DNA of 64,000 nt from Candidatus Zixiibacteriota bacterium (GTDB lineage: Bacteria; Zixibacteria; MSB-5A5; GN15; FEB-12): assembly GCA_024280215.1 (NCBI GenBank), contig JAJRQO010000015.1:1-64000 (forward strand), given 5' to 3'. The notes beneath the pieces are model-generated. The model was not told where the DNA came from, made no database searches, and saw nothing but the letters and a program-made list of their open reading frames with translations. Both the position numbers and the translations under genes were made by a program. The number at the start of each line of letters is the position of its first letter. Within the stretch, counting starts at the first letter, position 1. Positions 1 through 64,000 of this stretch are shown piece by piece.

Positions 1-3
1 AGT

Positions 4-17
4 CTCGCTTCGGCGAG
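4..17 (+). other. UUCG-loop hairpin upstream of the first gene
   Basis: A five-base-pair stem CTCGC/GCGAG closes a TTCG tetraloop about 20 bases before the first start codon. It lies at the very edge of the window, so its context is cut off. It has no T-tract and is not a terminator in the plus direction. Confidence 0.35.
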
Positions 18-37
18 GACACAAAGAAAAAACAAAA

Positions 38-1156
38 ATGAAAAACCCAACCCGAAAAAAACAACTATCACGATATTACCCAAAGAAGGGAGCTTTCCCT
101 AAAATAGTGATTCGTGAGCGTGACCGCACAATAATGAAGTTGATTTATGAGCACCGTTTTTTGGATACCAGTCTTATTTGGCATCTTCTGAAAACTGAAC
201 CTCCTGAGAATCAAGATTTCAAAATTGGCAAGGATGGCAAAAAACGCCCAACTAAATATGGCTTTGGCGAGAAAGCTTTATATAAGCGATTACAACAATT
301 ATTTCATGAGCGTTATCTTGAGCGGCACTTGATAACCGATGAGCCTGTTGGACGAGGTTATGGGAGTCCAAAAGCAATTTATGGTTTGGGGTTAAAGAGT
401 GCTCCAATAATTGCTGAGGTCGCTGGAATTTCTCCGCAAGACGTTAGAAATATAGTTCTTTCAAACAAAGTTAAATCTCCATTCTTGAGACATGCGTTAG
501 AGATTGCCATTTTCAGGGTAGCTCTTGAACTTGCCTGCCAAGCGACAGATGATAAAATTAAAGTTCTTTTTTGGGAACAAGGTCAAAGGCTTCAGGATTC
601 TGTTTTTGGAAAAAATGAGAAAAACAGAGAGGAGCGTTTCTCTGTTTTTCCAGACGCATTTTTCGGGATTGAAGTTAAAGACAAAGGCAAGGCTCATTAC
701 TTTATTGAAGTTGATAGGGGAACTATGCCGATTATTGCTTCCAAGAATCGCTCTGATATTCGCAAGAAGATATTTGGTTATTATTATTATCGTAAATCAG
801 GGAAATGTGCAACACGTTATGCCTATCGGAATCTTCCCGATGGTGAAGTTTCAGGATTGTGTTTTTTCGATGAAGCAAATAAACGAGATGAATATATACA
901 TGACAATCTTGAACCTATCAGAGGATTTCGAGTACTTTTTTTAGTTCCCGGAAAAATTGATCAAAATGGTAAACCATCTGGCAGGATGGCAAATATAATT
1001 TCTGCGTTCCCAAGTTTTGGGCGACAATTCTCATCGACATCTTTGTTCTGGTTTTCAAATATTAAAACCTACAATCCTGAATTTCCTGAAAAAGTTTTAG
1101 AGCCAACTTGGGTAACACCAAAATTGGAAGGCGGACTGCAAAGTCTGATTGAATAA
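38..1156 (+). CDS. Replication-relaxation family protein of a mobile element
   Basis: This 372-residue protein resembles the replication-relaxation family found on plasmids and integrative elements, usually beside TraG/VirD4-like ATPases. The first ~115 residues look like a winged-helix DNA-binding domain (RERDRTIMKLIYEHRFLD start, conserved YxRLxxL-like helix). Around residues 205-230 there is a PD...(F)IEVDRGT block, typical of the family's nuclease-like core. Its role in DNA relaxation or mobilisation is inferred from family association; no relaxase motif is visible. It is the leftmost gene of the element that ends at the tRNA-Arg gene near 7373. The upstream 37 bases show only a weak ribosome-binding site. 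Confidence 0.75.
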   Translation: MKNPTRKKQLSRYYPKKGAFPKIVIRERDRTIMKLIYEHRFLDTSLIWHLLKTEPPENQDFKIGKDGKKRPTKYGFGEKALYKRLQQLFHERYLERHLITDEPVGRGYGSPKAIYGLGLKSAPIIAEVAGISPQDVRNIVLSNKVKSPFLRHALEIAIFRVALELACQATDDKIKVLFWEQGQRLQDSVFGKNEKNREERFSVFPDAFFGIEVKDKGKAHYFIEVDRGTMPIIASKNRSDIRKKIFGYYYYRKSGKCATRYAYRNLPDGEVSGLCFFDEANKRDEYIHDNLEPIRGFRVLFLVPGKIDQNGKPSGRMANIISAFPSFGRQFSSTSLFWFSNIKTYNPEFPEKVLEPTWVTPKLEGGLQSLIE

Positions 1157-1481
1157 ATATGTTAAAATATTTAAAAGGAGTCTTGGCTTCATTCATTCTA
1201 TCTGCTCCGCAGTGGATCTCGCTATCCCGTGAGTACAAGGGGGAATATAGGGTGATATTTCTTTTTGGCTGGCATTGTTCTCACCCAGTTGGGTCAATGT
1301 CATCGTGGAATAGTGAAGCCGACATTCTTTTAAAGGAGAGAGCTGGCAGATGAAAAGAAAAAAAAGAACCAGATTTGAGGTCTGGTTCATTAGCGTGAAA
1401 GAATTTGGATTAAGAGCGAAGATTGTTTATAGAAAACGTATTCTTAACATTTCGTTTTATAAGTCTCATTCTCCATTTAAA
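1157..1481. other. Gap without a convincing gene
   Basis: Short open frames here lack ribosome-binding sites and look like chance frames. The only clear signal is the minus-strand terminator at 1355-1388. Confidence 0.5.
1355..1388 (-). terminator. Rho-independent terminator of the 60-residue gene
   Basis: Read on the minus strand, an 8-bp perfect stem (GAACCAGA/TCTGGTTC, seven-base loop) runs straight into a long T-tract, seen as the A-tract near 1355-1365 on the plus strand. It lies about 90 bases past the stop codon of the small minus-strand gene at 1482-1664. Confidence 0.75.
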
Positions 1482-1664
1482 CTATTCTTGGATCATATCG
1501 TCGATCAAATCGAGAAAACATTGAGACAAAGGCTCGTCTATTTTTTCGATTGTTTCCAAAAGTTTTTTCAATTGAGCGAATTTTTCAATATCATCTCGGT
1601 AAAGAGCTTTAGTCATTACTTGCAATTTAGCGAGCGTGACTGTCTGACGTATGGAACTAGCCAT
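1482..1664 (-). CDS. Small hypothetical protein of the mobile element
   Basis: This gene encodes a 60-residue, charged, probably all-helical protein (starts MASSIRQTVTLAK) of unknown function. A start 15 codons further upstream is possible. The ATG at 1664 is preferred because AAAGGAG lies nine bases before it. The gene has its own downstream terminator and sits between the replication-relaxation gene and the membrane-protein operon. A longer plus-strand frame of 153 codons covers the same bases but has a poorly spaced ribosome-binding site and odd composition. The unit could be a small regulator; nothing in the sequence proves that. Confidence 0.6.
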   Translation of the reverse strand: MASSIRQTVTLAKLQVMTKALYRDDIEKFAQLKKLLETIEKIDEPLSQCFLDLIDDMIQE

Positions 1665-1803
1665 GATTATTTTCTCCTTTGTTCGCAGATTCGGTGCTGG
1701 CTTCAGCATATTATCTCAAGCCAATCCTACTACAGACAAAGAAAATATCACGAAATAACTATTCAGACTATCATAGATAAAGCGTTTTGTCAAGGGAGGC
1801 AGG

Positions 1804-2910
1804 ATGGGTAAAGAAATAAACAAGGATATCTTTGGACGCTTTGTCGTTGGTGGAATTGTCGCATTTCTAATGTTTCATTATAACGTTGAAATAATTCATT
1901 TACTTGAAAGTGGGAATAACTATTTATTATCACTCGATAAATCATTCATGGCGAATCTTGGACGTACTTTTGATGATGCGGGGATTCTTTTAGCTTTTGT
2001 ATTGCTCATCGTGATGATAATTTATACTATTTTAAAAATAGTCATACTACTATTAGCATGGGTTATTGTTTCAATATTAGGTTTTCTTAATGATATTTAC
2101 GTCTTACCACTTTTGATTCCACTCTTAATAGTATATTCAAAATTTAGTTATTCATTTATTGCGACACCTATTTTATGGGTACCCAAAAAGGTGCTTGGGC
2201 TATTGGTTGCCGTTGGACGGTTTTTATCCAAGCTGTTTAATCTATTAGTTGTTGTCCCAATAGCCGAAGTTATTGCTTTAAAGAAGTCACCCAAAAAACA
2301 ATTCTACAAAATCGTTACTTCTTTACTTTTTGTCTTTGGCTTATGCGGAGTTGTTATAGGTGGGACGGGAGTTGCTGTTAAGATAATTCAAGACGGTAGT
2401 TTTGTTGGGGGAGTACAAGCATTTGTCAAAAATAATCTACCAGATGTTTTCTCAGAAGATATCTATACTAATATCAAACGTCAGGCAGTAATACAAGCAT
2501 CAACTCCTAATTGGACTAAGACTTCAATTCAATTAAAGAAAGGTGATGTTATAACATTTACAGCAACTGGAAAAATAAAATGCATTTCACCGCTCAAAGG
2601 TGGGTTGTCTGTAACTACTCCGATGGGAGTATATCTTTTTAATGGCTATGTTGTTCCAGACCGACTGACAAAATCATATCGACGAAAAGGTTTTTATCCA
2701 AGCAACTACATACTTCCTGGAGAAAATATTAACTGCTTAATGGCTAAAGTAGGTAAGGGAGGAGCATTTTTTGTCGGTACTAATAAAACCTATAAAGTAG
2801 AACATGACGGAGTTTTATTATTAGGGATAAATCAAGTATGGAAGTCGGGAGCGTGGAAAAAGAATTCAGGATATTTTGATATAAATATGATAGTAAGAAG
2901 AAAGGTGTAA
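1804..2910 (+). CDS. Unknown multi-pass membrane protein, first gene of the coupling-ATPase operon
   Basis: I do not recognise this 368-residue protein. The N-terminal ~200 residues hold about five hydrophobic segments (near 12-30, 58-90, 95-118, 125-150 and 165-192). The C-terminal ~165 residues are polar and beta-rich (repeated xxKKGDVITFTATGKI-like strands) and are presumably extracytoplasmic. GGGAGG precedes the ATG. The stop is followed one base later by the GTG start of the next gene, so the two are translationally linked and lead into the VirD4-like gene. The context suggests a role in element transfer or its membrane complex, but that is inference. Confidence 0.6.
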   Translation: MGKEINKDIFGRFVVGGIVAFLMFHYNVEIIHLLESGNNYLLSLDKSFMANLGRTFDDAGILLAFVLLIVMIIYTILKIVILLLAWVIVSILGFLNDIYVLPLLIPLLIVYSKFSYSFIATPILWVPKKVLGLLVAVGRFLSKLFNLLVVVPIAEVIALKKSPKKQFYKIVTSLLFVFGLCGVVIGGTGVAVKIIQDGSFVGGVQAFVKNNLPDVFSEDIYTNIKRQAVIQASTPNWTKTSIQLKKGDVITFTATGKIKCISPLKGGLSVTTPMGVYLFNGYVVPDRLTKSYRRKGFYPSNYILPGENINCLMAKVGKGGAFFVGTNKTYKVEHDGVLLLGINQVWKSGAWKKNSGYFDINMIVRRKV

Positions 2911-2911
2911 A

Positions 2912-3676
2912 GTGGAATATATCAGTAATGGATTCGGGCTATTACTTTTGTTTGGCATTGTAGCCCTGATTGCAGTTGGAGTTATGTTTTACAATCATAA
3001 GAATAATTTAAGACCGAAAGTAGGTAGGGCAGTGGTAAAAACAAATACAGAAGTAATTGATAAAGCAGGGGAATTGGTTGAATTAAATTCTAATTCATTA
3101 AAAGAATATCTAACTCCTCTTAGAAATGACCAGCCAGTGTTTATGCACGTAGTTGCTAATTTGCTTGAAAGAACTAAGAAATCAAGCGAAATAAAAGTTA
3201 TCCATGCCGTAACAAAACAGTTGGAAGCACAAAGTGAACTTTTATCTAAAATTGATGAATATGAAGAACAAATTCATACCCTTACTAGAAAAAAGGATAA
3301 TTTTAGACAAAGAGACGAAATGCAAGACCTTAAACATAATAGAGATAAAAAACGCATTCTCAATGAGATTGAAAACCTTGCTGATGAAGCAGGTGGCAGA
3401 GAGAAATCTCGCAAGCGTGAACTGGATAACCTTGAAGCTAAGCTTACTCATGAATATGCCAAGAAAAGGGTAGAAAACAGATTAGCAAGTATGGCTGACA
3501 GGGAGAAAAACGCTCAAAAAACTACGCAATTTAATGATATGAGAGATGTTTTTAATATCCAATATGAAGCAATAAAAAATGATAAGACTCTTACTCCCGC
3601 AGTTAGAAAGGAAACACTTAGAACGTTGGAACGAACCTTTATTGCACAATTAGATGAATTTACAGAGGGGCTATAA
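2912..3676 (+). CDS. Unknown membrane-anchored coiled-coil protein
   Basis: This 254-residue protein starts with GTG. One transmembrane helix (about residues 8-26) is followed by a long, highly charged, helical region rich in K and E (about 60-240) that should form a coiled coil. The start follows the upstream stop by one base, and the last base of its stop is the first base of the VirD4-like gene's ATG (TAATG). The three genes therefore form one operon. The architecture would suit a scaffold between the membrane and the coupling ATPase. I recognise no domain, so this role is only a suggestion. Confidence 0.6.
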   Translation: MEYISNGFGLLLLFGIVALIAVGVMFYNHKNNLRPKVGRAVVKTNTEVIDKAGELVELNSNSLKEYLTPLRNDQPVFMHVVANLLERTKKSSEIKVIHAVTKQLEAQSELLSKIDEYEEQIHTLTRKKDNFRQRDEMQDLKHNRDKKRILNEIENLADEAGGREKSRKRELDNLEAKLTHEYAKKRVENRLASMADREKNAQKTTQFNDMRDVFNIQYEAIKNDKTLTPAVRKETLRTLERTFIAQLDEFTEGL

Positions 3677-5448
3677 TGGGAAAAGTAGAAAAAAAACTGG
3701 AAGAGGTTAAGCAACTTCTTAATAAGAAGAAAAAAGCCAAACTGCCACGACTGCTTTTAGGGCATAGATATGATGATCCTTTTATTTTAAAAGGAAAAGA
3801 CCTTAATAATTCCTTTCATATTATGGGAGCGACAAGAGAAGGCAAAAGTAAACAGATTGAGAATATCTATCGTCAATTTATAGAGCAGGGAATTGGCGGA
3901 GCCGTAATTGATCCGCATGGATATTTATATGATGATTTGTTGGCATATTGCTCATACAAATCATCTCGAATGCCAGAAATTTTAGATAGAATCGTTTTGT
4001 TTGACCCAGGGGATGATAAAAGTGTTGTTGGATTTAACACACTTCAACAGATAGCAGGTCATGATATTGATACTCTGACCCTATCAAGAATGTATGCCAC
4101 GATAAAAGCAAGAGGAAAAGATAATTTTGATGAAATGCCAACAGCAAAAACTTGGCTTCAAAATATCTTTCATCCCTTAATCCAAAAAGGTCTGACTCTG
4201 ATTGAGGCAAAACATCTAATTGATAGAGGTTCAAGCGATAGTGATTTGTCTATGGCGATTGTTAAAGATTCAGGAGCCATGCTGATAGAGCATGATTGGG
4301 ATTGGTATGAGAAGCAAACAAAACAAACACAATATGCTGAATTGCTTAGCTCAGTAAATATGCTCAGAAGTTTTGTTTCATCAAAACGGATGGAGCTAAT
4401 ACTCGGACGTAAAGAGGGAGTCATTGATTTACGTAAAATTATGGATGAGGGAAAAATTCTCTTAGTGAATCTCAGTTCCCGAAAAATCCATCAAGATATT
4501 GCCCGATTACTCGGTACATTATTAGTTAATGAATTCTTCTTGGTTGCTAAAATGAGACCAAAAGATTCAAAACCGTTTTATCTTGCCATTGATGAATTTG
4601 AAAATTACGTGACACAGGATATCGCTGATGTTTTAGATCAGGGACCAAAATTCGGTATTCACCTCATTTTGGCTCATCATTCACTTGAGCAATTAAAAGA
4701 GAAGAATCAAAAAGTTTATGCGGCGGTTATGCAGAACGCCAAAATCAAAATAATTTATGGCGGACTAACTTATGAAAATTCTGAGATACTTATCAAGGAA
4801 CTTTTTAGTTATCGAGGCAGGGGAGGATTAAACCCTGATATGATAAAGAGAATTCAAAAATCTCCATATATTGAACCGACTGAATCAACGAGGACTGTAA
4901 GAAGTAATAGTGAAGGTCATTCTGAAACATTATCTTCTAGTAGTTCTTCGGGGAGCGGTAGTCAGTCAAGCGAAACAACTATTCCGATAGATGATTTATT
5001 TTTGTCTGATCAAGTTGTCAGTCATATCAATGCAAATTCAAGTACGTCTTCTTCTGGAGAATCAACAAGCAGTACCAGTAGTCATAGTCATACTGATTCA
5101 GTTGTCCCTTTTATGATTCAAGAACTCAAATGGTATATTTCCAGTATTCAGAATTATTCTTTAGAGGAACAAGTTTATCGTGTAATAGCAAGGATGAAGA
5201 ATCTGCCTCAACAAATCTGCATGGTGAAATTACCTAAACAGCCTGTCAAAACGATTAAGACTAATTTCGTAGAGGAATATCATGAACTTGATAATGAAGT
5301 TGAAGATTTTACGGAACAAGTTAATGAACTATCTCCTTACCATATAACACCACTGGAGGCTATAACGGAACGTGAAAAAATTACTCAAGGTATTTTATCA
5401 CGAATAGAATTTGAACAACCTGATGAAGAAGATGACCGTTGGCAATAA
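3676..5448 (+). CDS. VirD4/TraG-like type IV coupling ATPase
   Basis: A 590-residue P-loop ATPase of the conjugative coupling-protein group (TraG/TraD/VirD4, TraM-recognition). Walker A is GATREGKS at residues 51-58. The Walker B strand FYLAIDE ends at D306-E307. It is followed by the conserved block LDQGPKFGIHLILAHHSLEQL. Unlike classic VirD4 it has no N-terminal transmembrane helices, so membrane attachment may come from the two membrane proteins encoded just upstream. A serine-rich stretch near residues 405-475 looks disordered. The gene would move DNA of the integrative element between cells or to a transfer apparatus. No relaxase or VirB4 is visible in the window. Confidence 0.8.
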   Translation: MGKVEKKLEEVKQLLNKKKKAKLPRLLLGHRYDDPFILKGKDLNNSFHIMGATREGKSKQIENIYRQFIEQGIGGAVIDPHGYLYDDLLAYCSYKSSRMPEILDRIVLFDPGDDKSVVGFNTLQQIAGHDIDTLTLSRMYATIKARGKDNFDEMPTAKTWLQNIFHPLIQKGLTLIEAKHLIDRGSSDSDLSMAIVKDSGAMLIEHDWDWYEKQTKQTQYAELLSSVNMLRSFVSSKRMELILGRKEGVIDLRKIMDEGKILLVNLSSRKIHQDIARLLGTLLVNEFFLVAKMRPKDSKPFYLAIDEFENYVTQDIADVLDQGPKFGIHLILAHHSLEQLKEKNQKVYAAVMQNAKIKIIYGGLTYENSEILIKELFSYRGRGGLNPDMIKRIQKSPYIEPTESTRTVRSNSEGHSETLSSSSSSGSGSQSSETTIPIDDLFLSDQVVSHINANSSTSSSGESTSSTSSHSHTDSVVPFMIQELKWYISSIQNYSLEEQVYRVIARMKNLPQQICMVKLPKQPVKTIKTNFVEEYHELDNEVEDFTEQVNELSPYHITPLEAITEREKITQGILSRIEFEQPDEEDDRWQ

Positions 5449-5474
5449 TTATCTGCACTAAACGATACTTGAAT

Positions 5475-5516
5475 TGACAGTCATTTACCTCTAAGAGGTT
5501 ATAGTTTATGCTGTCA
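5475..5516. other. Bipartite inverted repeat between convergent genes
   Basis: Outer arms TGACAG/CTGTCA enclose an inner palindrome ACCTCT-A-AGAGGT. It lies between the coupling-ATPase stop and the antitoxin stop. There is no T-tract on either side, so it is a weak terminator at best; it could be a protein-binding site. Confidence 0.35.
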
Positions 5517-5543
5517 GTTTATCATCATTTTCCATGCTTGTTT

Positions 5544-5894
5544 TTAAGCCGTTTGTTTTGCTCTAGTTATTTTACGAGTAGGTTTGTTGGGGATGATGTG
5601 AATATCAATCTTTCCGTTGCAAGCGTTGGATATTTTCTGGAGTGTTGCAACATTGAAATTATTACAACCTTTTCTTTCCCATCTGCTAATTGCTGTTTTT
5701 TGCGTACCGATTTTATTGGCAAGTTCTTCTTGGGTCATTCCAGATTTGGATCTTAGATTATAAATCTGCTGAGAAATTTCTAATCTAATCTTTGCTTTGG
5801 CAACATCCTTTTTAAATTTAGTAATTTTATCTGAATCGTCGCCGACAGCAAGTTTAGTTAAAAGCTCGACTGCTTTTGATGTTTTCTTTTTCAT
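5544..5894 (-). CDS. XRE-family antitoxin (HigA-like)
   Basis: A 116-residue protein with a helix-turn-helix of the XRE/Cro type at about residues 48-100 (RSKSGMTQEELANKIG, then KTAISRWERKG). It is the second gene after a RelE/HigB-like toxin, 11 bases apart, which is the HigBA order. The start is supported by GAGGAT five bases upstream. It should neutralise the toxin and repress the pair through the repeats at 6288-6309. About 45 residues precede the HTH and are rich in lysine and helix; this is probably the toxin-binding part. The pair lies inside the integrative element and probably stabilises it. Confidence 0.8.
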   Translation of the reverse strand: MKKKTSKAVELLTKLAVGDDSDKITKFKKDVAKAKIRLEISQQIYNLRSKSGMTQEELANKIGTQKTAISRWERKGCNNFNVATLQKISNACNGKIDIHIIPNKPTRKITRAKQTA

Positions 5895-5905
5895 ATTATC
5901 CTCAC

Positions 5906-6259
5906 TTACATAGTATGCTTAGATGGATTAGCCTTGAATTTTTTCATTCTTTTGACGGCTAAGTCAATTTCTCTATTTGGAACAGCTCTTGTCTTTTTAG
6001 TAATGGCATGAGTCATAATAACCGCTTCCTTGTCATGGTAGAAGTATAGGATTCTGAACTGTCCTCTTGAAGTTATTATTCTTAACTCATTTATTTTATC
6101 TCTTAATGGTGCTGAATGAGGTCTTTGCAGTTTATGACCTTGTTCTGCAAGTAATTCTATCATCGCAGTGAATTCTACCTGAATAAGGTGATCCACTTTC
6201 TTATACCATTCAAGCACAGGTGATTTTCTATTTTCTTTATAGAATTCAATTTGTGCCAT
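5906..6259 (-). CDS. RelE/HigB-like toxin (phage Gp49-like family)
   Basis: A 117-residue toxin of the RelE superfamily, Gp49-like/HigB branch, which in characterised members cleaves mRNA on the ribosome. Family features are present: VLEWYKKV near residue 18, LRDKINELRI and the GQFRILYFYHD strand pair near 65-80, and the KKTRAVPNREIDLAVKRMKKF tail. AGGAGT six bases before the ATG supports the start. Toxin-first order with a downstream XRE antitoxin gives a HigBA-type module. Codons and composition match the rest of the element. Confidence 0.82.
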   Translation of the reverse strand: MAQIEFYKENRKSPVLEWYKKVDHLIQVEFTAMIELLAEQGHKLQRPHSAPLRDKINELRIITSRGQFRILYFYHDKEAVIMTHAITKKTRAVPNREIDLAVKRMKKFKANPSKHTM

Positions 6260-6287
6260 TTAAACTCCTATGTTCTGGCTATCGGTA

Positions 6288-6309
6288 AGTTAACATAAAA
6301 GTTAACATT
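6288..6309 (-). promoter_or_regulatory. Putative toxin-antitoxin operator
   Basis: AAGTTAACAT occurs twice, starting at 6288 and 6300, 12 bases apart, so both GTTAAC palindromes fall nearly on the same face of the helix. The sites lie 29-50 bases upstream of the toxin start, where an XRE antitoxin would be expected to bind and autoregulate the operon. Confidence 0.55.
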
Positions 6310-6342
6310 GTCAAGCTGTTTTTTTTGGGTCGCTTTAAAAAT

Positions 6343-7278
6343 TTACACACTAATAGCATTACTTGGGCTGAAGTGGCTATACGTATCAATCATATCCTGA
6401 TTACTCATATGTAAATAATTCTGAGTAACAGTCAGAGATGTATGTCCCATAATTTTTTGTAAAATTACAGGAGAACCTCCTTGCCTGATAAAGTAGGTTG
6501 CCGAACTATGTCGAATAAGGTGAGGGTAAAGAGTGAATCCTGCTTTCTTGCCAATATCCTGAATAATTTTATGGCAATGCCGAGAAGTAATAGGTTTACC
6601 GTTGCGCTGACAAAACAATAATTCACCTGTGGTATCTGCTCGCCACCGATTGAGATAGAAGTGCATGGTCTTAATCATTCTGGCACCCATAGGAACTTGA
6701 CGTTCTTTTCTGCCTTTTCCGTAAACTTTAATAAGTCCGCCTCGCAAATCTATATTAGAAAGTTTCAAAGTAATAAGTTCTTCTTTTCTTATCATGGCAT
6801 CCCAAAATAGCATGACCATTGTCAGGTTACGATAGCCTTCATAAGTTCTTTTATTCAAAGTATGAAGAGCAAGCTGGATTTGCTCAGGGGAAAGGACAGG
6901 TTTAATTCGTTTTTCTGCTCTGATGAGTTTTATTTTATAAGTTGGATTTGGTTTATCCCAAATACCTTCTTCTTCAAGGTAATTGAAGAATCTACGATAT
7001 ACACGTATCCGCCCATTGACGGTTTCGTCTGCGACGTTTCCGATTAACTCCATCAGGTAATTTTGAATATCCTGTTTGGTTACATCTTCTATGTCGATGC
7101 CCTTTTTTTCGAGATGTTTGGCAAGGTAGCCTAAACGTTCGGCGTATACGTTGAGGGTGCGTGGTGCTAAGTTTCTGATTTTACAACCGAAGACAAACGC
7201 ATCGACGTATGTCTTCCAGTTTGAATTCACATTAAAAGTATCGACCAATTGGTACAATCTCTTGAGATGATCTTCCAT
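6343..7278 (-). CDS. Tyrosine recombinase (element integrase)
   Basis: A 311-residue XerC/D-like tyrosine integrase. The SAM-like core-binding domain covers about residues 18-105 and the catalytic domain about 125-300. All catalytic residues are visible: R164, K188, H253-x-x-R256, H279 and the nucleophile Y288 (TQNYLHMS). The gene lies only about 95 bases from the 3' end of tRNA-Arg and reads away from it, the usual position for an integrase that targets a tRNA. It is therefore more likely the element's own integrase than the chromosomal dimer-resolution enzyme. Confidence 0.88.
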   Translation of the reverse strand: MEDHLKRLYQLVDTFNVNSNWKTYVDAFVFGCKIRNLAPRTLNVYAERLGYLAKHLEKKGIDIEDVTKQDIQNYLMELIGNVADETVNGRIRVYRRFFNYLEEEGIWDKPNPTYKIKLIRAEKRIKPVLSPEQIQLALHTLNKRTYEGYRNLTMVMLFWDAMIRKEELITLKLSNIDLRGGLIKVYGKGRKERQVPMGARMIKTMHFYLNRWRADTTGELLFCQRNGKPITSRHCHKIIQDIGKKAGFTLYPHLIRHSSATYFIRQGGSPVILQKIMGHTSLTVTQNYLHMSNQDMIDTYSHFSPSNAISV

Positions 7279-7372
7279 GTCTTCTCCTACCAGTCAGAGG
7301 CCCTTTAGGGCTATCTGAGCTAACTTTGTGGTTTGGGTAATCGCTGGAAGTTGTTGTCTGCGTGGATTTTAA

Positions 7373-56407: not shown

Positions 56408-57523
56408 TTACGGGGCAGGGTAGAGTATATCAAGAGCGTCTCTGAAAGAAGTAATAGCGTTAGTCGTATCAGAGTCGTTGAGGTAAATAAGCCCTAAATA
56501 ATAGTAAGGGCGTGGATTTTGCAAATGTAGTTCTTGAGCTATCTTAAGATTTTCAAGGGCTTTTTCTTTGTCGCCTTGTTCTGAATAACAGAGAGCTAAA
56601 TTTAATAGTGCTGGAGCATAGAACTCATCTAAGCTAATAGCTCTGTTAAGTGCGGTAATGGCAGAGTCGATATGATTATTTTTTAAATGTAATTCTCCAA
56701 CACCATTCCATGCTGCGACAAAAGTAGAGTCCAAGGTGACCGCTTTTTTATAATAGTTGAGAGATTTTTCGTTTTCATGTAAAATATTGTAAATTTCTCC
56801 CATCAAACTGTATGGAACAGGAAAGAGGGAATCATTTTTTACAGCAATTTCAACATTAGCAAGAGCTCGTTCATACATCCGTTTATTTCGTAAGTTAAGA
56901 GCAAGATTGTAGTAGCGAGAAGATTTTAAATTCGGAATATATCCTTTTTTTAACGTATCTGAAACCGTTACTACTTTTTTGCCAAGTAAGACATCAATCG
57001 AATCAATTATTAAATCATGAGTTGTTAAAGAAAAACCGGCTGGTCCATATCGAATAACGCCAGTAGTGTCGGTAATTGCTGTTGAAGGAACAGCGATGAC
57101 ACCAAATTGATAGAATATCTCTAAATTGTTATCAATTATAACTGGGAATGGGAGGTCTAAATCTTTTGTAAACTGCACAACTTTTTCTGTAAGTTGTGCC
57201 GACATCTTTTGGCTTTCAACATTAACAGCAATAATTTTAAAACGGTCGTTAGGGTGTAGCAAAGTAATTTTTTTTAATGAGATAAGTTCTTCAACCGAAC
57301 GTTTTGACCAAGTCGACCAAAAAACAACAATAAGCATATTATTATCTTTGATAATCTTGTCAGTGCTAACTTTTTCACCAGTTAAAATATCTGTGTTGTT
57401 AATTATTGGAAGTTTCATTCCTTCCTGCAGGTATCGAAATGCTGCCGTTGCCGACGGGACAAATAAGACCGCAATAAGTAAGATTATGAAAAGATTGGTA
57501 GATTTGTGCTTAACGAATGACAT
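56408..57523 (-). CDS. Cysteine-less TlpA/thioredoxin-fold protein with TPR repeats
   Basis: A 371-residue exported protein. Signal or anchor segment 10-28; a TlpA/ResA-like thioredoxin fold (about 33-185) in which the active-site region reads FWSTWSKRS, so the usual WCxxC cysteines are serines 73 and 76; the cis-proline region is present (FGVIAVPSTAITD). About four TPR repeats follow (200-365; ALLNLALCYSEQGDKEKALENL). It cannot do normal thiol chemistry and is probably a binding or scaffold protein. It is the third gene of the cytochrome operon, eight bases after the TPR gene. Confidence 0.82.
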   Translation of the reverse strand: MSFVKHKSTNLFIILLIAVLFVPSATAAFRYLQEGMKLPIINNTDILTGEKVSTDKIIKDNNMLIVVFWSTWSKRSVEELISLKKITLLHPNDRFKIIAVNVESQKMSAQLTEKVVQFTKDLDLPFPVIIDNNLEIFYQFGVIAVPSTAITDTTGVIRYGPAGFSLTTHDLIIDSIDVLLGKKVVTVSDTLKKGYIPNLKSSRYYNLALNLRNKRMYERALANVEIAVKNDSLFPVPYSLMGEIYNILHENEKSLNYYKKAVTLDSTFVAAWNGVGELHLKNNHIDSAITALNRAISLDEFYAPALLNLALCYSEQGDKEKALENLKIAQELHLQNPRPYYYLGLIYLNDSDTTNAITSFRDALDILYPAP

Positions 57524-57531
57524 TATGTATA

Positions 57532-58050
57532 TTAGTTCCCTTTGTTGAGTGCTGTTTCAAGTCCGTTTTGTAAGTATTCTAATGCATTCGTTGTATCATT
57601 TTGATATAAGTATGTCAATCCACGTAGATATAATGTTTCTGCTTCATTCGGTTTAATTCTTAAAATTGCATCGAGCAGTTCCGATGCTTGTATATAATCT
57701 TTCTTCTCAATTTTAATTCTCGCAAGAAGTATCTTTATTCTGGTTGAGAGGGGAGCAAGAGCTACGCCCTGTGTGAGAGTCGAATCTGCTTTGGTGGTGT
57801 CATTTTTTTTTAGTTCAATTAAGCCTTTGTAATAAAAGCCATCTACATTTTTAGAATCAAAAAGTAAAAGTGAATCAATATAGATATAAGCAGAGTCTAC
57901 TTGTTGGGCATCAAAATATGACCGAGATTTTTTTAAGTAGAGACGTATCTGTTTTCTTTTTGCTCTTTTTTCTTCTTTGGTTAATTCTTGAGCAACAGTA
58001 ATGCTTGTACATAATATAGAGAAAATTAGAAAATATTTTATCAGTTTCAT
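57532..58050 (-). CDS. Exported TPR protein
   Basis: A 172-residue protein with a signal peptide (1-20, ending ITVAQE) and about three TPR motifs (for example ASELLDAILRIKPNEAETLYLRGLTYL-type helices). It sits between the multihaem cytochrome (10-base gap) and the TlpA-TPR gene, so it probably helps assemble or dock the cytochrome complex. Confidence 0.8.
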   Translation of the reverse strand: MKLIKYFLIFSILCTSITVAQELTKEEKRAKRKQIRLYLKKSRSYFDAQQVDSAYIYIDSLLLFDSKNVDGFYYKGLIELKKNDTTKADSTLTQGVALAPLSTRIKILLARIKIEKKDYIQASELLDAILRIKPNEAETLYLRGLTYLYQNDTTNALEYLQNGLETALNKGN

Positions 58051-58060
58051 TTGTTACCGT

Positions 58061-59332
58061 CTATTTTTTACGGTTATACTCTTTTGGTGAATGACAACCA
58101 ACAACACAACTTCCGCCATTTTCTAACTTAGTATAAGTCACAGGTAATTCCCAACTAATTTTTCCAAATGGAACCGATTCTCTTATATGTTTAGATTGCG
58201 ATGATGCGTGTACCTGGTGACAGGCTTTACAACTACGTCCTTTTTTCTCTTTGTTGACATGGAGAAAATGTAGATTGATATCCCCATCACGGAAGTCTGT
58301 CAGCGTTTTAGTTTTTTCGTTGAGAGCTATATCTTTATTGTGACATTGAAAACAAATTGCATAGTTGTCTGTATCATACGGCATATAAAATTCTTCAGGG
58401 AAATTGTCACGCAAAATCCGATGATACTCTGAACCATGTGGATCATGGCAGGCATTACAATCACCCTCTTTGACAGGGCCATGTTTGTATTTTTGATCAG
58501 AAACAAAATCACCCATTTCATTATGACAACTGAAACAAAGGGCTTCTTGTGGTTTTACAAACATACGAGGGTTATCTGAGGCGTGGACATCGTGGCAGTC
58601 CATACATTTACCCTCAGCAACTGGTGCATGCTGGTGCTTGGCTCCAACATAGGCAGCAATGTTTTCATGACAGCCATAACAAAGTTGTTCGTTGGCAGCA
58701 CCTAAAAGGAATTCTTCTTTGTTGGCGTGCGGATTATGACACTTGGTACAATCTTCAGCAACAGGAGAATGAATATGTCGTTTATTCATAATATCAGATT
58801 TTTCTTTATGGCAACTAAAACAGAGGTCTTTTTTAGGGGCAACCAGTTGTTTTTCATTGGCGGAGGCGTGTGGATTATGACAGACATTACAATCACCAGC
58901 AGCGATTGGACCGTGAACATATTCATTATCAAAATGTTCTTCAGCATGACAAGTAAAGCAAAGTTCGGAGGCATCACCTTTAAGAGTGTAGCGATAGTTT
59001 GATTGATGTGGATCATGACAACCAACGCAATTACCATCGGCAACAGGTGTGTGGAGATGTTCTTCAAGCATCATATCTCGCTTACCATCATGACAATTAA
59101 AGCAGAGTTCTTCTTGTTCGGCTGCGAAAATGAATTTATGTTTTTTACCTTCAACGGGGGTATGACAGATAGTACAAATACCAGCACCTACAGGTCCATG
59201 TATGAATTCCATTGTTCCCATTGTAACATGACACTTGTCAGTCTGACATCCAGCATCACCTTGAGCAGAGATAGGATGCGGGGTCAGTAGTAAAAGTAAA
59301 AATATAAAAACTACGGTCGAAATTTTGTTCAC
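58061..59332 (-). CDS. Multihaem c-type cytochrome (doubled CxxCH type)
   Basis: A 423-residue periplasmic cytochrome with signal peptide 1-23. It contains thirteen CxxCH motifs, mostly spaced in pairs of the doubled-CxxCH pattern (LCFxCHxxK then CxxCHxPHxS). Two non-standard sites add to these: CQTDKCH near the N-terminus (CX4CH) and CVVGCH near the C-terminus (CX3CH). Up to fifteen haems are therefore possible. Its likely task is electron transfer or storage across the periplasm or outer membrane. Upstream, TCCTCC/GGAGGA marks a strong ribosome-binding site. It is the first gene of a three-gene operon. Confidence 0.93.
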   Translation of the reverse strand: MNKISTVVFIFLLLLLTPHPISAQGDAGCQTDKCHVTMGTMEFIHGPVGAGICTICHTPVEGKKHKFIFAAEQEELCFNCHDGKRDMMLEEHLHTPVADGNCVGCHDPHQSNYRYTLKGDASELCFTCHAEEHFDNEYVHGPIAAGDCNVCHNPHASANEKQLVAPKKDLCFSCHKEKSDIMNKRHIHSPVAEDCTKCHNPHANKEEFLLGAANEQLCYGCHENIAAYVGAKHQHAPVAEGKCMDCHDVHASDNPRMFVKPQEALCFSCHNEMGDFVSDQKYKHGPVKEGDCNACHDPHGSEYHRILRDNFPEEFYMPYDTDNYAICFQCHNKDIALNEKTKTLTDFRDGDINLHFLHVNKEKKGRSCKACHQVHASSQSKHIRESVPFGKISWELPVTYTKLENGGSCVVGCHSPKEYNRKK

Positions 59333-59702: not shown

Positions 59703-60242
59703 ATGGAAGAGTTATATAAAAAGTTATTAGAAGAAGTTGGCGAAGATGTAAATCGTGATGGCCTCAAATCAACTCCAAAAAGGGCAGCGAAAGCTTTTAA
59801 GTTTCTTACAAAAGGATATAATGAAAATATAGAAGAAATAATAAATGGAGCGCTTTTTCCGTCTGAAGCAAGCGAAATTGTTTTAGTCAAAAATATCGAA
59901 CTCTATTCTTTATGCGAGCATCACTTGTTACCCTTTATAGGCAAATGTCATGTTGCCTATATTCCAAGTGGTAAGGTTTTAGGGCTTTCAAAAATCGCAA
60001 GAATCGTTGATGTTTTCGCTCGGAGACTACAAATACAAGAACAACTTACTCGACAAATTGCAGAAACAATAAATAAATATACCAACGCCCAAGGTGTTGC
60101 TGTTGTCATTGAAGCAAAGCATTTGTGTATGATGATGCGTGGTGTTGAAAAGCAGAATTCTTCAATGGTTACTTCATGTGTTTTAGGAGAATTTCATGAT
60201 GACCCTTCAACCCGAGCGGAGTTTTTCTCTCTTATAAAATAA
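59703..60242 (+). CDS. folE: GTP cyclohydrolase I
   Basis: A 179-residue type I GTP cyclohydrolase that converts GTP to dihydroneopterin triphosphate. Zinc ligands C71, H74 ([10 protein letters not shown]) and C142 (HLCMMMRG) have the same spacing as in the E. coli enzyme, and H73 and H140 match its catalytic histidines. [21 protein letters not shown] and QNSSMVTS are the family blocks. It ends three bases before the PTPS fusion gene. No other folate gene (folB, folK, folP) is near, so in this operon its product is more likely meant for a biopterin-type cofactor. Confidence 0.95.
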
Positions 60243-60245
60243 ATT

Positions 60246-61466
60246 ATGTATTTAACAGTATCTAAAAGATTCGAAATTTCAATTTCTCATAGGATGTATA
60301 TTCATGACTGTACTGAAGCGGAAAATATTTCCATGTATGGTGATGAGTCAATAGGAGAGCATGGGCATGGTCATAATATTGTTGTGACTTTTATCTTTAA
60401 CGGGCAAGTCTCTTGCGATGATGGGATGATGTTAAATGTTACTGTTATTAAAGAGAAAATCAATAAGCTACTGCAAGAACGATATGATCATAAGTTTCTT
60501 AACGTTGATACTTCACCATTTGATAGAGAAATTCCAACATTTGAAAAAATAGCCCATGAGCTTTTAAAAGACGCCACTCCGTTGTTCGCAGATGAGTTAG
60601 CTCAATTGGTCGTTTGTCATATTTGCGAAGATAATGAATGGGAAGCGACTGCTTATGCAGATGGAAGAATTGAGCGAAGTTTTTATTTAGACTTTTGTGC
60701 TGCTCGTAGAACTTACTCACCATTTTTATCTGAATCTGAAAATAAAAAATTGTTTGGTGTTTCAGCAAGGCGTTCTGGGCATGGACATCATTATAATATG
60801 CGTGTTACATTTGACGGAAAACTTGATCCGAAAAGTAATTTAATTATTGATTTTGCAAAAGTACGACCTGTCTTAAATAAATTTTACCGAAAATATGACC
60901 ATCGAAATCTTACGACTGATTTACCCGAACTTCAGGGTAAACCACTAACGACTGAATCTTTGGCTCAGCATTTTTTTCAAGAGCTAAAAAAAGATTTTCC
61001 TCTTAATCGAATTCGCCTTCATGAAAATAATTATTTTTTCATAGAATATACAAAAGAAGATAAAATGTTCATGGGAGTGAAGACAAAATTTTATGCAGCT
61101 CATCGGTTGTATTCACCAAATATTTCCGAAGAAGAAAATATTAAGATGTATGGAAAGTGTAGCAACGACAGAGGTCATGGTCATACATATAAAGTTGAGA
61201 TGGTTTTAGAGGGAGAGTATGACCGTGATACAGGGACAATTTTTGATTTGGCTATCGTCTTAACGCAGCTTGAAGAAATTTTACATCATTGGAATTATAA
61301 ACATCTCAATTTAGAAACCGATGATTTTCAAAAGATTATTCCGACGGGTGAAAATATCTGTAAAATATTATGGGGTAAATTGTTTAATCTCTATGGAAAT
61401 CAGCTCATAAAGCTGTCATTGTCAGAGACTGCTAATAATCGTTTTACTATTAGAAAAGAAATTTAG
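60246..61466 (+). CDS. Triple-domain 6-pyruvoyl-tetrahydropterin synthase / QueD-like protein
   Basis: A 406-residue protein of three tandem PTPS-fold (T-fold) domains, about 1-135, 145-268 and 278-406. Domain 3 has everything: zinc ligands H286, H311 and H313, catalytic C305, triad H353 and substrate-anchoring E394. Domain 1 keeps H15, H41, H43, H82 and E128 but has S35 in place of the cysteine. Domain 2 keeps H179, H181, H219 and E260, has S173 for the cysteine and R154 for the first zinc histidine. PTPS normally is one ~120-140-residue subunit in trimers and hexamers with interface active sites, so this chain may be a built-in trimer. By context (folE before, reductase after, aromatic hydroxylase opposite) it should turn dihydroneopterin triphosphate into 6-pyruvoyl-tetrahydropterin; a queuosine role is the alternative. 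Confidence 0.88.
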   Translation: MYLTVSKRFEISISHRMYIHDCTEAENISMYGDESIGEHGHGHNIVVTFIFNGQVSCDDGMMLNVTVIKEKINKLLQERYDHKFLNVDTSPFDREIPTFEKIAHELLKDATPLFADELAQLVVCHICEDNEWEATAYADGRIERSFYLDFCAARRTYSPFLSESENKKLFGVSARRSGHGHHYNMRVTFDGKLDPKSNLIIDFAKVRPVLNKFYRKYDHRNLTTDLPELQGKPLTTESLAQHFFQELKKDFPLNRIRLHENNYFFIEYTKEDKMFMGVKTKFYAAHRLYSPNISEEENIKMYGKCSNDRGHGHTYKVEMVLEGEYDRDTGTIFDLAIVLTQLEEILHHWNYKHLNLETDDFQKIIPTGENICKILWGKLFNLYGNQLIKLSLSETANNRFTIRKEI

Positions 61467-61476
61467 AAAGAACAAT

Positions 61477-62163
61477 ATGAAAACAATTTTAATAACAGGT
61501 GCAAGCCGAGGTATAGGTAAAGCTATCGCACTAAAGTTTGCTTCGGGTAACAAAGTTATTTTAACAGGTCGTGATAAATCAAAATTGGATGAGACCGCAT
61601 CTTTGGTTGTTAAGAACGGTGGCGAAGCAATTGTCATAGAGGCGGATTTGTCGGTACCGCAAAATGTTATCGCTCTTACCAAAAATGAAAATCTGCCCCA
61701 ACTTGACTTGCTTATAAATAATGCTGGAATTGCACTTGTCGGTTCATTGGATGAGATAACTCTGGAAGATTGGCAGAAAACATTTGATGTTAATGTCACC
61801 GCACCTTTTTTACTTATACAAAAACTATCCAGCAAAATGCCGAAAGGTTCTTCTATTGTAAATATTGCATCGGTAGCATCAAAAAGTGGATTTCCTAATT
61901 GGAGTACTTATTGTATGAGTAAGTTTGCTTTAGATGGATTTACAAAGTCAATCAGAGAAGAGTTGCGTGAAAAAGATATAAGAGTTTTAAATATCTACCC
62001 AGGAGCTGTTGCAACTGATATTTGGAACGGTGTACCTGGAGAGCAAGACTTAAGTGCGATGATGCAACCTACTTCTGTCGCAGAAATTATTTTTACCGCT
62101 GTAGCACAACCTACTGGTACTGTTATAGAAGATATTACGATGCGGAATTTGCATGACTTTTAA
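61477..62163 (+). CDS. Short-chain dehydrogenase, probable sepiapterin-reductase-type step
   Basis: A 228-residue classical SDR. Nucleotide motif TGASRGIG (7-14), NNAG (81-84), catalytic S132, Y145 and K149 (YCMSK). It is ten bases downstream of the PTPS fusion gene. SDR sequence alone does not fix the substrate. From its place after folE and PTPS, it is the best candidate to reduce the 6-pyruvoyl side chain to tetrahydrobiopterin, as sepiapterin reductase does. The 3' end overlaps the aromatic hydroxylase gene by 29 bases, tail to tail. Confidence 0.85.
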   Translation: MKTILITGASRGIGKAIALKFASGNKVILTGRDKSKLDETASLVVKNGGEAIVIEADLSVPQNVIALTKNENLPQLDLLINNAGIALVGSLDEITLEDWQKTFDVNVTAPFLLIQKLSSKMPKGSSIVNIASVASKSGFPNWSTYCMSKFALDGFTKSIREELREKDIRVLNIYPGAVATDIWNGVPGEQDLSAMMQPTSVAEIIFTAVAQPTGTVIEDITMRNLHDF

Positions 62164-63970
62164 GCGGGTTGTCTGCTAAATTGATTCCATCATCTATTAG
62201 TTTTTTCAAGCTTGTATCGCTATTTTTCTTTTCAGTGAGAAAAATTCTAATTTCTTTTTCTAAATCAGATAATAATTTTTCGTCTATGAGAATTTCAAGA
62301 AGTTCTACAGCTAATAACCAATCGTAGCCGTGTTCTTTTTGGAGTGTCTGCCATACTTCCTCAAGAACAGTCTGATTCTTATCGCCAGCTCTGTATTCAC
62401 GTAATTGTTGATAGAGCTTGTGAAGATTTTTGTCTGCTTCAGAATATTTAACTTTTATAACTCTTGTTTTTGAAATTGCAGTTGGTTGTTCAAAGGCATC
62501 TTTGTCAGCGGCACCAGAAGAAACCGATATTATTTTTGAACCAACAGCCATGTCGTAAGTACCCCATGATGGGTCAAACAATGTTTTGTTTTGATAGGTA
62601 ACTGTGCAATCTTTGAAAGTTATAAGTATCAGTTTTTTGTTGTGGAATTTTATTGACGTACATGTTCCAGTGACTTGTATACCTGATTCAAAATTGAGAG
62701 TCACATCAGAATTAACTTTTATATTTTGATGCGTGAGATCATCATTATTGTAATCTTCAAAATCTTTTTGGCTATCCAAAAGATTTCCAACAGGTGAACT
62801 AAATCCATCTTTATGGTATTCAATAGAATGTCCATCAAGTTCTTTATTGTCAACAGCAAGATTTGTTTTACTGCTTGTCTTTATAAAAATTGGTTCATTG
62901 GAATCGTTGATGAGCATTTCAGAACATATACCTGAAACTTGCAAGCCCGACGAATAGAGGAGGGTAGCAGTGTTATGAGAATTTATAGCTTGTTCAACAC
63001 CATATTTTCCACCAATGCGAAATGCCATACTATTGGCAAATTGTTCAAGTATTTTTATAAGAGTTTTAAAATTATCGGTTACAAAAAGATGTGGTTGTTT
63101 TGTTGTGATGTCAAAAGGGTAATCCTGAGTTGATAAGTCGTATTTGATTTTTTTTACCTCATCAGACAAGCAGGTTGCAGCTTCACCAATTGATGATAGG
63201 ATACCTGCACCATAAATTTTTGGCTCATCCAAAGTACCTACTAAACCATATTCAACAGTCCACCAATGTAGACGTGACAAACGTGCCATCTCAGAAGGTT
63301 CTCCAAGATTATCTTGCTTGTGTAAAACATCTTTTTCTAGTGTATCTATTTTGTGCTGTGATGCTCCTGGAGTTTCTTTTAGAATAGAAAGTTTTCGAAT
63401 AGCTTCGTATAACTCAAAATCTTTTTTTGATGACATCGCCTTGGCACCTACCTCACCAAATCGTCTGAGATATTCAGCATATTCAGGGTCTGCTATAACT
63501 GGTGCATGTCCAGCAGCTTCATGGATGATGTCTGGGCTTGGAGTATATTCAATATGATTTATCTGTCGCATATCAGCAGCGATTACTAAAACTCGATGTT
63601 GTTGAAATTCCATAAATGCAGCAGGGGGGATAAACCCATCAACAGAAACTGCTCCCCATCCGATTTTTGAAAGGATTTCATTCATCTCTTCAATAGATGG
63701 GATGCCTTCGATTTTTAGACCAGTTTTTTCAAGCCCTTCAAAATAAATCTCGTGTGCATGTTCGATAAGAAACCGATGGTTTTGACGAAGGACATATCGC
63801 CAAACAGAATGGTCTATTGGAGTGTATGCTATATAATTTTGGTCAACGATAAACTGTTTGAGGTGATTGGGAAGTTTTTGTATCGCAGGATTTGTGTTTA
63901 ATTTTTGAAAAAAATCAGAGCCTTCAGAATTGTCGGGTATAGAATCAGATGATGGGTGCTTGCTGGTCAT
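62135..63970 (-). CDS. Aromatic amino acid hydroxylase, long bacterial type
   Basis: A 611-residue non-haem iron hydroxylase of the phenylalanine/tyrosine/tryptophan hydroxylase family, which uses tetrahydropterin and oxygen. The catalytic domain covers about 35-320 with iron ligands H150 and H155 (IIHEAAGHAPVIADPEYAEYLRRFGEVG) and E240 (HWWTVEYGLVGT). About 280 residues follow, including beta-rich segments (LNFESGIQVTGTC, PSWGTYDMAVGSKII) and a helical end. This long form also occurs in Bacteroidetes-type genomes. ATG 63970 is chosen because GGAGAAG lies six bases before it; an ATG at 63991 would add seven residues. It faces the pterin operon, so cofactor maker and cofactor user are neighbours. 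Confidence 0.92.
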   Translation of the reverse strand: MTSKHPSSDSIPDNSEGSDFFQKLNTNPAIQKLPNHLKQFIVDQNYIAYTPIDHSVWRYVLRQNHRFLIEHAHEIYFEGLEKTGLKIEGIPSIEEMNEILSKIGWGAVSVDGFIPPAAFMEFQQHRVLVIAADMRQINHIEYTPSPDIIHEAAGHAPVIADPEYAEYLRRFGEVGAKAMSSKKDFELYEAIRKLSILKETPGASQHKIDTLEKDVLHKQDNLGEPSEMARLSRLHWWTVEYGLVGTLDEPKIYGAGILSSIGEAATCLSDEVKKIKYDLSTQDYPFDITTKQPHLFVTDNFKTLIKILEQFANSMAFRIGGKYGVEQAINSHNTATLLYSSGLQVSGICSEMLINDSNEPIFIKTSSKTNLAVDNKELDGHSIEYHKDGFSSPVGNLLDSQKDFEDYNNDDLTHQNIKVNSDVTLNFESGIQVTGTCTSIKFHNKKLILITFKDCTVTYQNKTLFDPSWGTYDMAVGSKIISVSSGAADKDAFEQPTAISKTRVIKVKYSEADKNLHKLYQQLREYRAGDKNQTVLEEVWQTLQKEHGYDWLLAVELLEILIDEKLLSDLEKEIRIFLTEKKNSDTSLKKLIDDGINLADNPLKSHANSAS

Positions 63971-64000
63971 GGTACTTCTCCAATTAGTCATATGTAATAA

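Follow-up and report, generated by a model that had tools for sequence, protein, structure and literature searches.

The window, the whole stretch of 64,000 nucleotides that was analysed, encodes a protein in which three PTPS domains follow one another in a single chain. The reading that best accounts for the evidence, to which we assign a probability of about 0.78, is that this triple PTPS is a BH4-type PTPS-II enzyme carrying three ring subunits in one chain and a single complete, composite active site. As judged from its residues, no single domain of the protein carries a full site; since the PTPS triad is intersubunit, with the Cys here in domain 3 and the Asp-His pair in domains 1 and 2, the fused domains are expected to complement one another. 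Most probably it serves phenylalanine hydroxylase by carrying out the PTPS step of tetrahydrobiopterin synthesis.

A Pfam search recovered three separate PF01242 stretches in the 406-residue ORF (total E value 1.4e-64), and a profile search of the whole genome placed them at 60255-60635, 60690-61055 and 61077-61457, bearing out the three tandem domains proposed in the initial annotation. The triple ORF is not an assembly artefact, since 20 of 61 related genomes, its own among them, carry a full-length homologue in a single ORF (at 36-74% identity in the other 19) and 70 distinct triples were gathered. These comprise one divergent triple from Ardenticatena and 69 main-clade sequences, the number left after removal of three duplicates and the basis of all residue counts out of 69. 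A scan of named genomes located the main clade in Zixibacteria, in Chthoniobacterales (many Verrucomicrobia, including Udaeobacter) and in one MAG labelled Calditrichota/Calditrichaeota, with pairwise identities among the 69 triples ranging from 35% to 95% (median 49%). The coordinates of the gene, its domains, its putative active-site residues and its neighbours are collected in Table 1.

Table 1. The triple PTPS gene, its neighbours and the residues discussed in the text (window coordinates; counts refer to the 69 main-clade triples).
Feature	Position	Strand	Remarks
FolE, GTP cyclohydrolase I	59703..60242	+	TIGR00063 E 6.7e-76; 3 nt upstream of triple PTPS; only FolE found in the genome
Triple PTPS gene	60246..61466	+	ATG start, 406 aa plus stop
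Domain 1 (about aa 1-140)	60246..60665	+	PF01242 66.4 bits; own clade in domain tree 100/100
S35, Cys position of domain 1	60348..60350	+	Thr 33, Ser 16, Ala 12 and others of 69
D81-H82, domain 1 Asp-His pair, putative partner of the domain 2 pocket that lacks Cys	60486..60491	+	69/69
Domain 2 (about aa 141-272)	60666..61061	+	PF01242 73.1 bits; own clade 100/95
R154, replaces first zinc His of domain 2	60705..60707	+	Arg in 69/69
S173, Cys position of domain 2	60762..60764	+	Ala 57, Ser 11, Thr 1 of 69
H179-G-H181 of domain 2	60780..60788	+	68/69 and 69/69
D218-H219, domain 2 Asp-His pair, putative partner of C305	60897..60902	+	D 67/69, H 69/69
Domain 3 (about aa 273-406)	61062..61463	+	PF01242 86.7 bits; own clade 100/98
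H286, first zinc ligand in domain 3	61101..61103	+	invariant, 69/69
C305, catalytic Cys, PTPS-II motif CxxxxxHGH	61158..61160	+	invariant, 69/69
H311-G-H313, second and third zinc ligands in domain 3	61176..61184	+	invariant, 69/69
N350-Y351, site of the lost domain 3 Asp-His	61293..61298	+	Asp-His complete in 0/69
H353, domain-3-specific His, two residues past the lost His	61302..61304	+	invariant, 69/69
SDR oxidoreductase, probable sepiapterin reductase	61477..62163	+	PF00106
Aromatic amino acid (phenylalanine) hydroxylase, convergent	62135..63991	-	NF010657 E 1.6e-233; solved relative 7vgm E 1e-160

The triad of PTPS is made up of a Cys from one subunit and an Asp-His pair from the neighbouring subunit, these residues being Cys42, Asp88 and His89 in the rat enzyme. 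The title of Burgisser (1995), cited in PMC7546909, describes the triad as intersubunit. In the triple PTPS, the zinc His residues, Cys305, the Thr/Glu residues and the pterin-anchor Glu occur together in domain 3 only, where E394 is also kept in all 69 main-clade triples, and the Asp-His pair required for a PTPS-II triad is carried by domains 1 and 2 but not by domain 3. Ser at positions 35 and 173, Cys at position 305 and, in domain 2, Arg instead of the first zinc His had all been noted initially and are confirmed, with the Cys retained by domain 3 alone and the Arg shared by every main-clade homologue. The accompanying description of one intact and two altered sites stands in so far as only domain 3 has the Cys, but is imprecise about the supposedly intact site, whose Asp-His is replaced by N350-Y351 and is complete in none of the 69 sequences. 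Because its own Asp-His is lost, domain 3 would need a fused neighbour, and since domains 1 and 2 both retain the pair, its site could be completed by either of them. A chemistry based on Ser in the first two domains was considered and rejected as unlikely, because Ser is not conserved at the Cys position of either domain, being replaced by Ala in most triples in domain 2 and varying between Thr, Ser, Ala and others in domain 1.

The PTPS groups are told apart by their motifs: QueD (PTPS-I) carries CxxxHGH and lies in a queuosine gene context, and PTPS-III has ExxHGH in place of the Cys and lies in a folate context. For PTPS-II, the signature given in PMC5041015 is CxxxxxHGH. This signature is found in domain 3 (C305-SNDRG-HGH), together with the three zinc His residues of PTPS-II, and in neither of the other two domains. 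Folate-type (PTPS-III) or queuosine-type (QueD) chemistry is thus very improbable for the enzyme, even though the QueD profile TIGR03367 scores on it too and domain 1 of the window's protein formally holds an ExxHGH motif (E38). A QueD role was rejected on the spacing of Cys305, which is that of PTPS-II and not that of CxxxHGH, and on the presence of a separate QueD in a queuosine operon on another contig; a PTPS-III role of domain 1 was rejected because E38 is kept in only 8 of the 69 triples and no HPPK was found. Indeed, neither FolB nor HPPK was found in the genome, which is 96% complete, and for this reason de novo folate synthesis seems to be absent from it. The QueD gene, the genome's other PTPS gene, forms part of a queF-queC-queE-queD operon at positions 3591-5830 of its contig.

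The AF2 model of the triple PTPS, computed from a 20-row alignment, reached a pLDDT of 94.6 and a pTM of 0.91. Its best match among solved structures is human PTPS (Z 11.9 with an rmsd of 2.0 for 136 residues; by Foldseek, a target TM of 0.91), closely followed by rat PTPS (Z 11.8) and then by enzymes with tandem T-folds, among them urate oxidase. The T-fold, for which structure prediction had been suggested as a check, is accordingly present in the model. The asymmetric pseudo-trimer with one working site that the initial annotation had envisaged is, as a prediction, well supported by these confidence values, by the match to human PTPS and by family-wide conservation. Given its sequence, the chain cannot have exact three-fold symmetry. 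Upon closure, the chain, of about 47 kDa, would form a 12-strand pseudo-trimeric barrel in which Cys305 of domain 3 and the Asp-His of an adjoining fused domain, in all likelihood domain 2, would constitute the sole complete composite site. Domain 3 would provide the zinc ligands, Cys305 and the pterin anchor, and its neighbour the Asp-His; the resulting site would convert dihydroneopterin triphosphate to 6-pyruvoyltetrahydropterin, which the SDR would in turn reduce to tetrahydrobiopterin for the hydroxylase. The pocket of domain 1, facing the former Asp-His of domain 3, would be a decayed site, and that of domain 2, facing the Asp-His of domain 1, a conserved site lacking the Cys.

Underlying this arrangement is a cyclic pairing, which we infer from conservation, of each pocket with the Asp-His of the preceding domain, C305 being matched with domain 2. 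Pairing with the preceding domain is favoured because the two halves of each site then share the same conservation fate. In weighted conservation scores with a chain mean of 0.62, calculated from an alignment that includes the three duplicates, down-weighted by clustering, the domain 3 pocket scores 1.00 and the domain 2 Asp-His 0.97, the domain 2 pocket 0.95 and the domain 1 Asp-His 1.00, and the domain 1 pocket 0.46 and the domain 3 Asp-His 0.44. Under the opposite pairing, decayed halves would meet invariant ones. Domain 1 of the window's triple, like that of its genus, keeps all three zinc His residues, H15, H41 and H43; in most homologues its pocket is degenerate. The divergent Ardenticatena triple, in which the domain 1 pocket and the domain 3 Asp-His are lost and the other two sites are complete, also fits pairing with the preceding domain. 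The order of the strands appears to agree with it as well, the last strand of each domain running into the first strand of the next through about four residues (132-137 to 142-154) and the zinc site being located at the first two strands of a domain.

Such short linkers also bear on the possibility that the chain forms no ring of its own and that the third domains of several chains meet instead, with domains 1 and 2 acting as scaffolding. Homotypic contacts of this type are plausible in dual-domain relatives, because their second domain is complete in both Cys and Asp-His. For the triple PTPS they are improbable, considering that only about four residues separate the strands, that the pTM is 0.91 and that a homotrimer of domain 3, which has lost its Asp-His, would have no complete triad.

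It is possible, if somewhat doubtful, that the asymmetry results from neutral drift, spare sites having decayed after fusion with no functional meaning. Conservation of the domain 1 pocket and of the domain 3 Asp-His below the chain average points in this direction, and drift could operate alongside the preferred reading of a single composite site in everything apart from the domain 2 pocket. While it explains the decayed site, it does not explain the strong conservation of this Cys-less pocket (R154, H179, H181 and E260, the last kept in 68 of the 69 triples, with the Asp-His of domain 1), which may be either structurally required or endowed with a second function. A second working or regulatory site, making the enzyme bifunctional or feedback-controlled, would be in keeping with scores for the pocket and its proposed partner far above the chain mean and with the universal replacement of His by Arg. 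This seems rather unlikely, as the pocket lacks the Cys and its conservation may reflect the folding of the barrel; moreover, no PTPS that has such an R-H-H pocket and an assigned function is known to us. Only tentatively can the three composite sites be assigned three fates, one catalytic, one decayed and one re-used as a second pocket, in a bifunctional or feedback-regulated asymmetric enzyme.

The assignment of the triple PTPS to tetrahydrobiopterin synthesis is based on its gene neighbourhood. FolE lies upstream of the triple in 60 of the 63 loci with flanks (within 200 nt in 52); 52 of the 63 have an SDR downstream, and 37 have a convergent gene for an aromatic amino acid hydroxylase. The flanks of the 63 loci reach more than 600 nt upstream in 59 cases, more than 800 nt downstream in 60 and more than 3 kb downstream in 47. 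Because FolE is so regularly adjacent, usually in the company of a sepiapterin-reductase-like SDR and a phenylalanine hydroxylase, a role in providing tetrahydrobiopterin is the most likely one, with the hydroxylase as the likely user of the cofactor. Sepiapterin reductase 2bd0 is the second-best solved match of the window's SDR (E value 1.3e-32) and many other SDRs score closely; the protein is probably a sepiapterin reductase, an assignment made at family level, with its specificity inferred. With this qualification, the linkage of PTPS-II to FolE and a sepiapterin-reductase-like SDR is found here. A hydroxylase was detected in 15 of 20 triple-bearing relatives and in 3 of 41 triple-less ones (Fisher p = 1.3e-7, uncorrected for phylogeny). 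Counting against the tetrahydrobiopterin explanation are the five of the 20 triple-bearing genomes in which no hydroxylase was detected and the pterin-4a-carbinolamine dehydratase that was not found in the 96% complete genome. Sepiapterin formation and side-chain cleavage, put forward initially as examples of divergent chemistry, receive no positive support from a FolE-PTPS-SDR-phenylalanine hydroxylase cluster in a genome in which HPPK and FolB were not found.

The hydroxylase itself is a long protein (618 residues) of the PRK14056 type, in a genome with no detected carbinolamine dehydratase. On the other side of the cluster, the minus strand at 56408-59332 encodes a multihaem cytochrome with six paired-CXXCH stretches, which adjoins TPR and redoxin/TPR proteins. 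At the far end of the window, positions 1-7300 encode a replication-relaxation protein, several ORFs without a Pfam match and a tyrosine integrase (6343-7278, minus strand), and probably represent an integrated mobile element.

Relatives of the triple PTPS with fewer domains show a comparable division of residues. In one family of the same class, two-gene PTPS pairs adjoin FolE in five genomes. Gene A of these pairs has the zinc His residues, the Cys and the Asp-His, and gene B keeps the zinc His residues and the Cys and has lost the His of the Asp-His pair in all five cases (replaced by Arg, Tyr, Phe, Phe and Cys), making a heteromeric A/B enzyme likely. These pairs share with the triple the divided Cys and Asp-His and the adjacent FolE, but differ in having separate genes and a complete A. 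Dual-domain PTPS was found in records from Chloroflexi, Fimbriimonadales, Poribacteria, Paenibacillus and Armatimonadetes, the first domain lacking the Cys in four of the five examined, and sometimes the Asp-His, and the second being complete. In a domain tree of 137 columns, whose deep forks, which bear on the order of fusion, are weak, domains 1, 2 and 3 each form one group (support in Table 1), and domain 3 clusters with gene B and with the second domain of the dual-domain proteins (81/96). Together, these residue patterns and groupings suggest that the triple may be a covalent A-A-B ring.

Among characterized enzymes, animal PTPS (rat, 1gtq; human, 3i2b) shares with domain 3 the fold, the zinc triad, the Cys spacing, the Thr/Glu residues and the pterin-anchor Glu, and has the intersubunit Cys/Asp-His triad that is proposed for the triple. 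It is, however, a homohexamer of single-domain chains with six identical sites, whereas the triple has three specialized domains per chain. Urate oxidase, QueF of the Vibrio type and GTP cyclohydrolase IB likewise have tandem T-folds in one chain (Z of about 9-11), but with two T-folds per chain and with other chemistry and ring sizes. QueD has the COG0720 fold and the zinc site in common with the triple and differs in its CxxxHGH motif, queuosine operon and single domain. Bacterial PTPS is reportedly single- or dual-domain in the study by Kong and co-workers (FEBS Lett 580:4900), whose title names at most two domains. Kong et al. (2006) is cited, as reference 152, in PMC5041015 for single- and dual-domain bacterial PTPS. 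Fusion as such is therefore not new, dual-domain bacterial PTPS having been described in 2006; relative to these BH4-type PTPS-II enzymes with known tandem fusions, the triple adds a third domain and the division of Cys and Asp-His. A search for triple, bimodular or heteromeric PTPS returned nothing relevant in a literature collection with few subscription papers, and to this extent agrees with the initial annotation, which knew of no described triple PTPS.

The triple PTPS would represent an unusual natural case, widely distributed in Zixibacteria and in soil Chthoniobacterales such as Udaeobacter, in which a homotrimeric enzyme has become a covalent pseudo-trimer whose catalytic residues are divided among the domains. 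Since its relatives include single-domain, two-gene, dual-domain and triple-domain forms, the steps from a symmetric to an asymmetric ring are directly testable. Current family names (PTPS/QueD) would mislabel the protein, whose genomic context suggests that uncultured bacteria possess a complete pathway to tetrahydrobiopterin together with phenylalanine hydroxylase.
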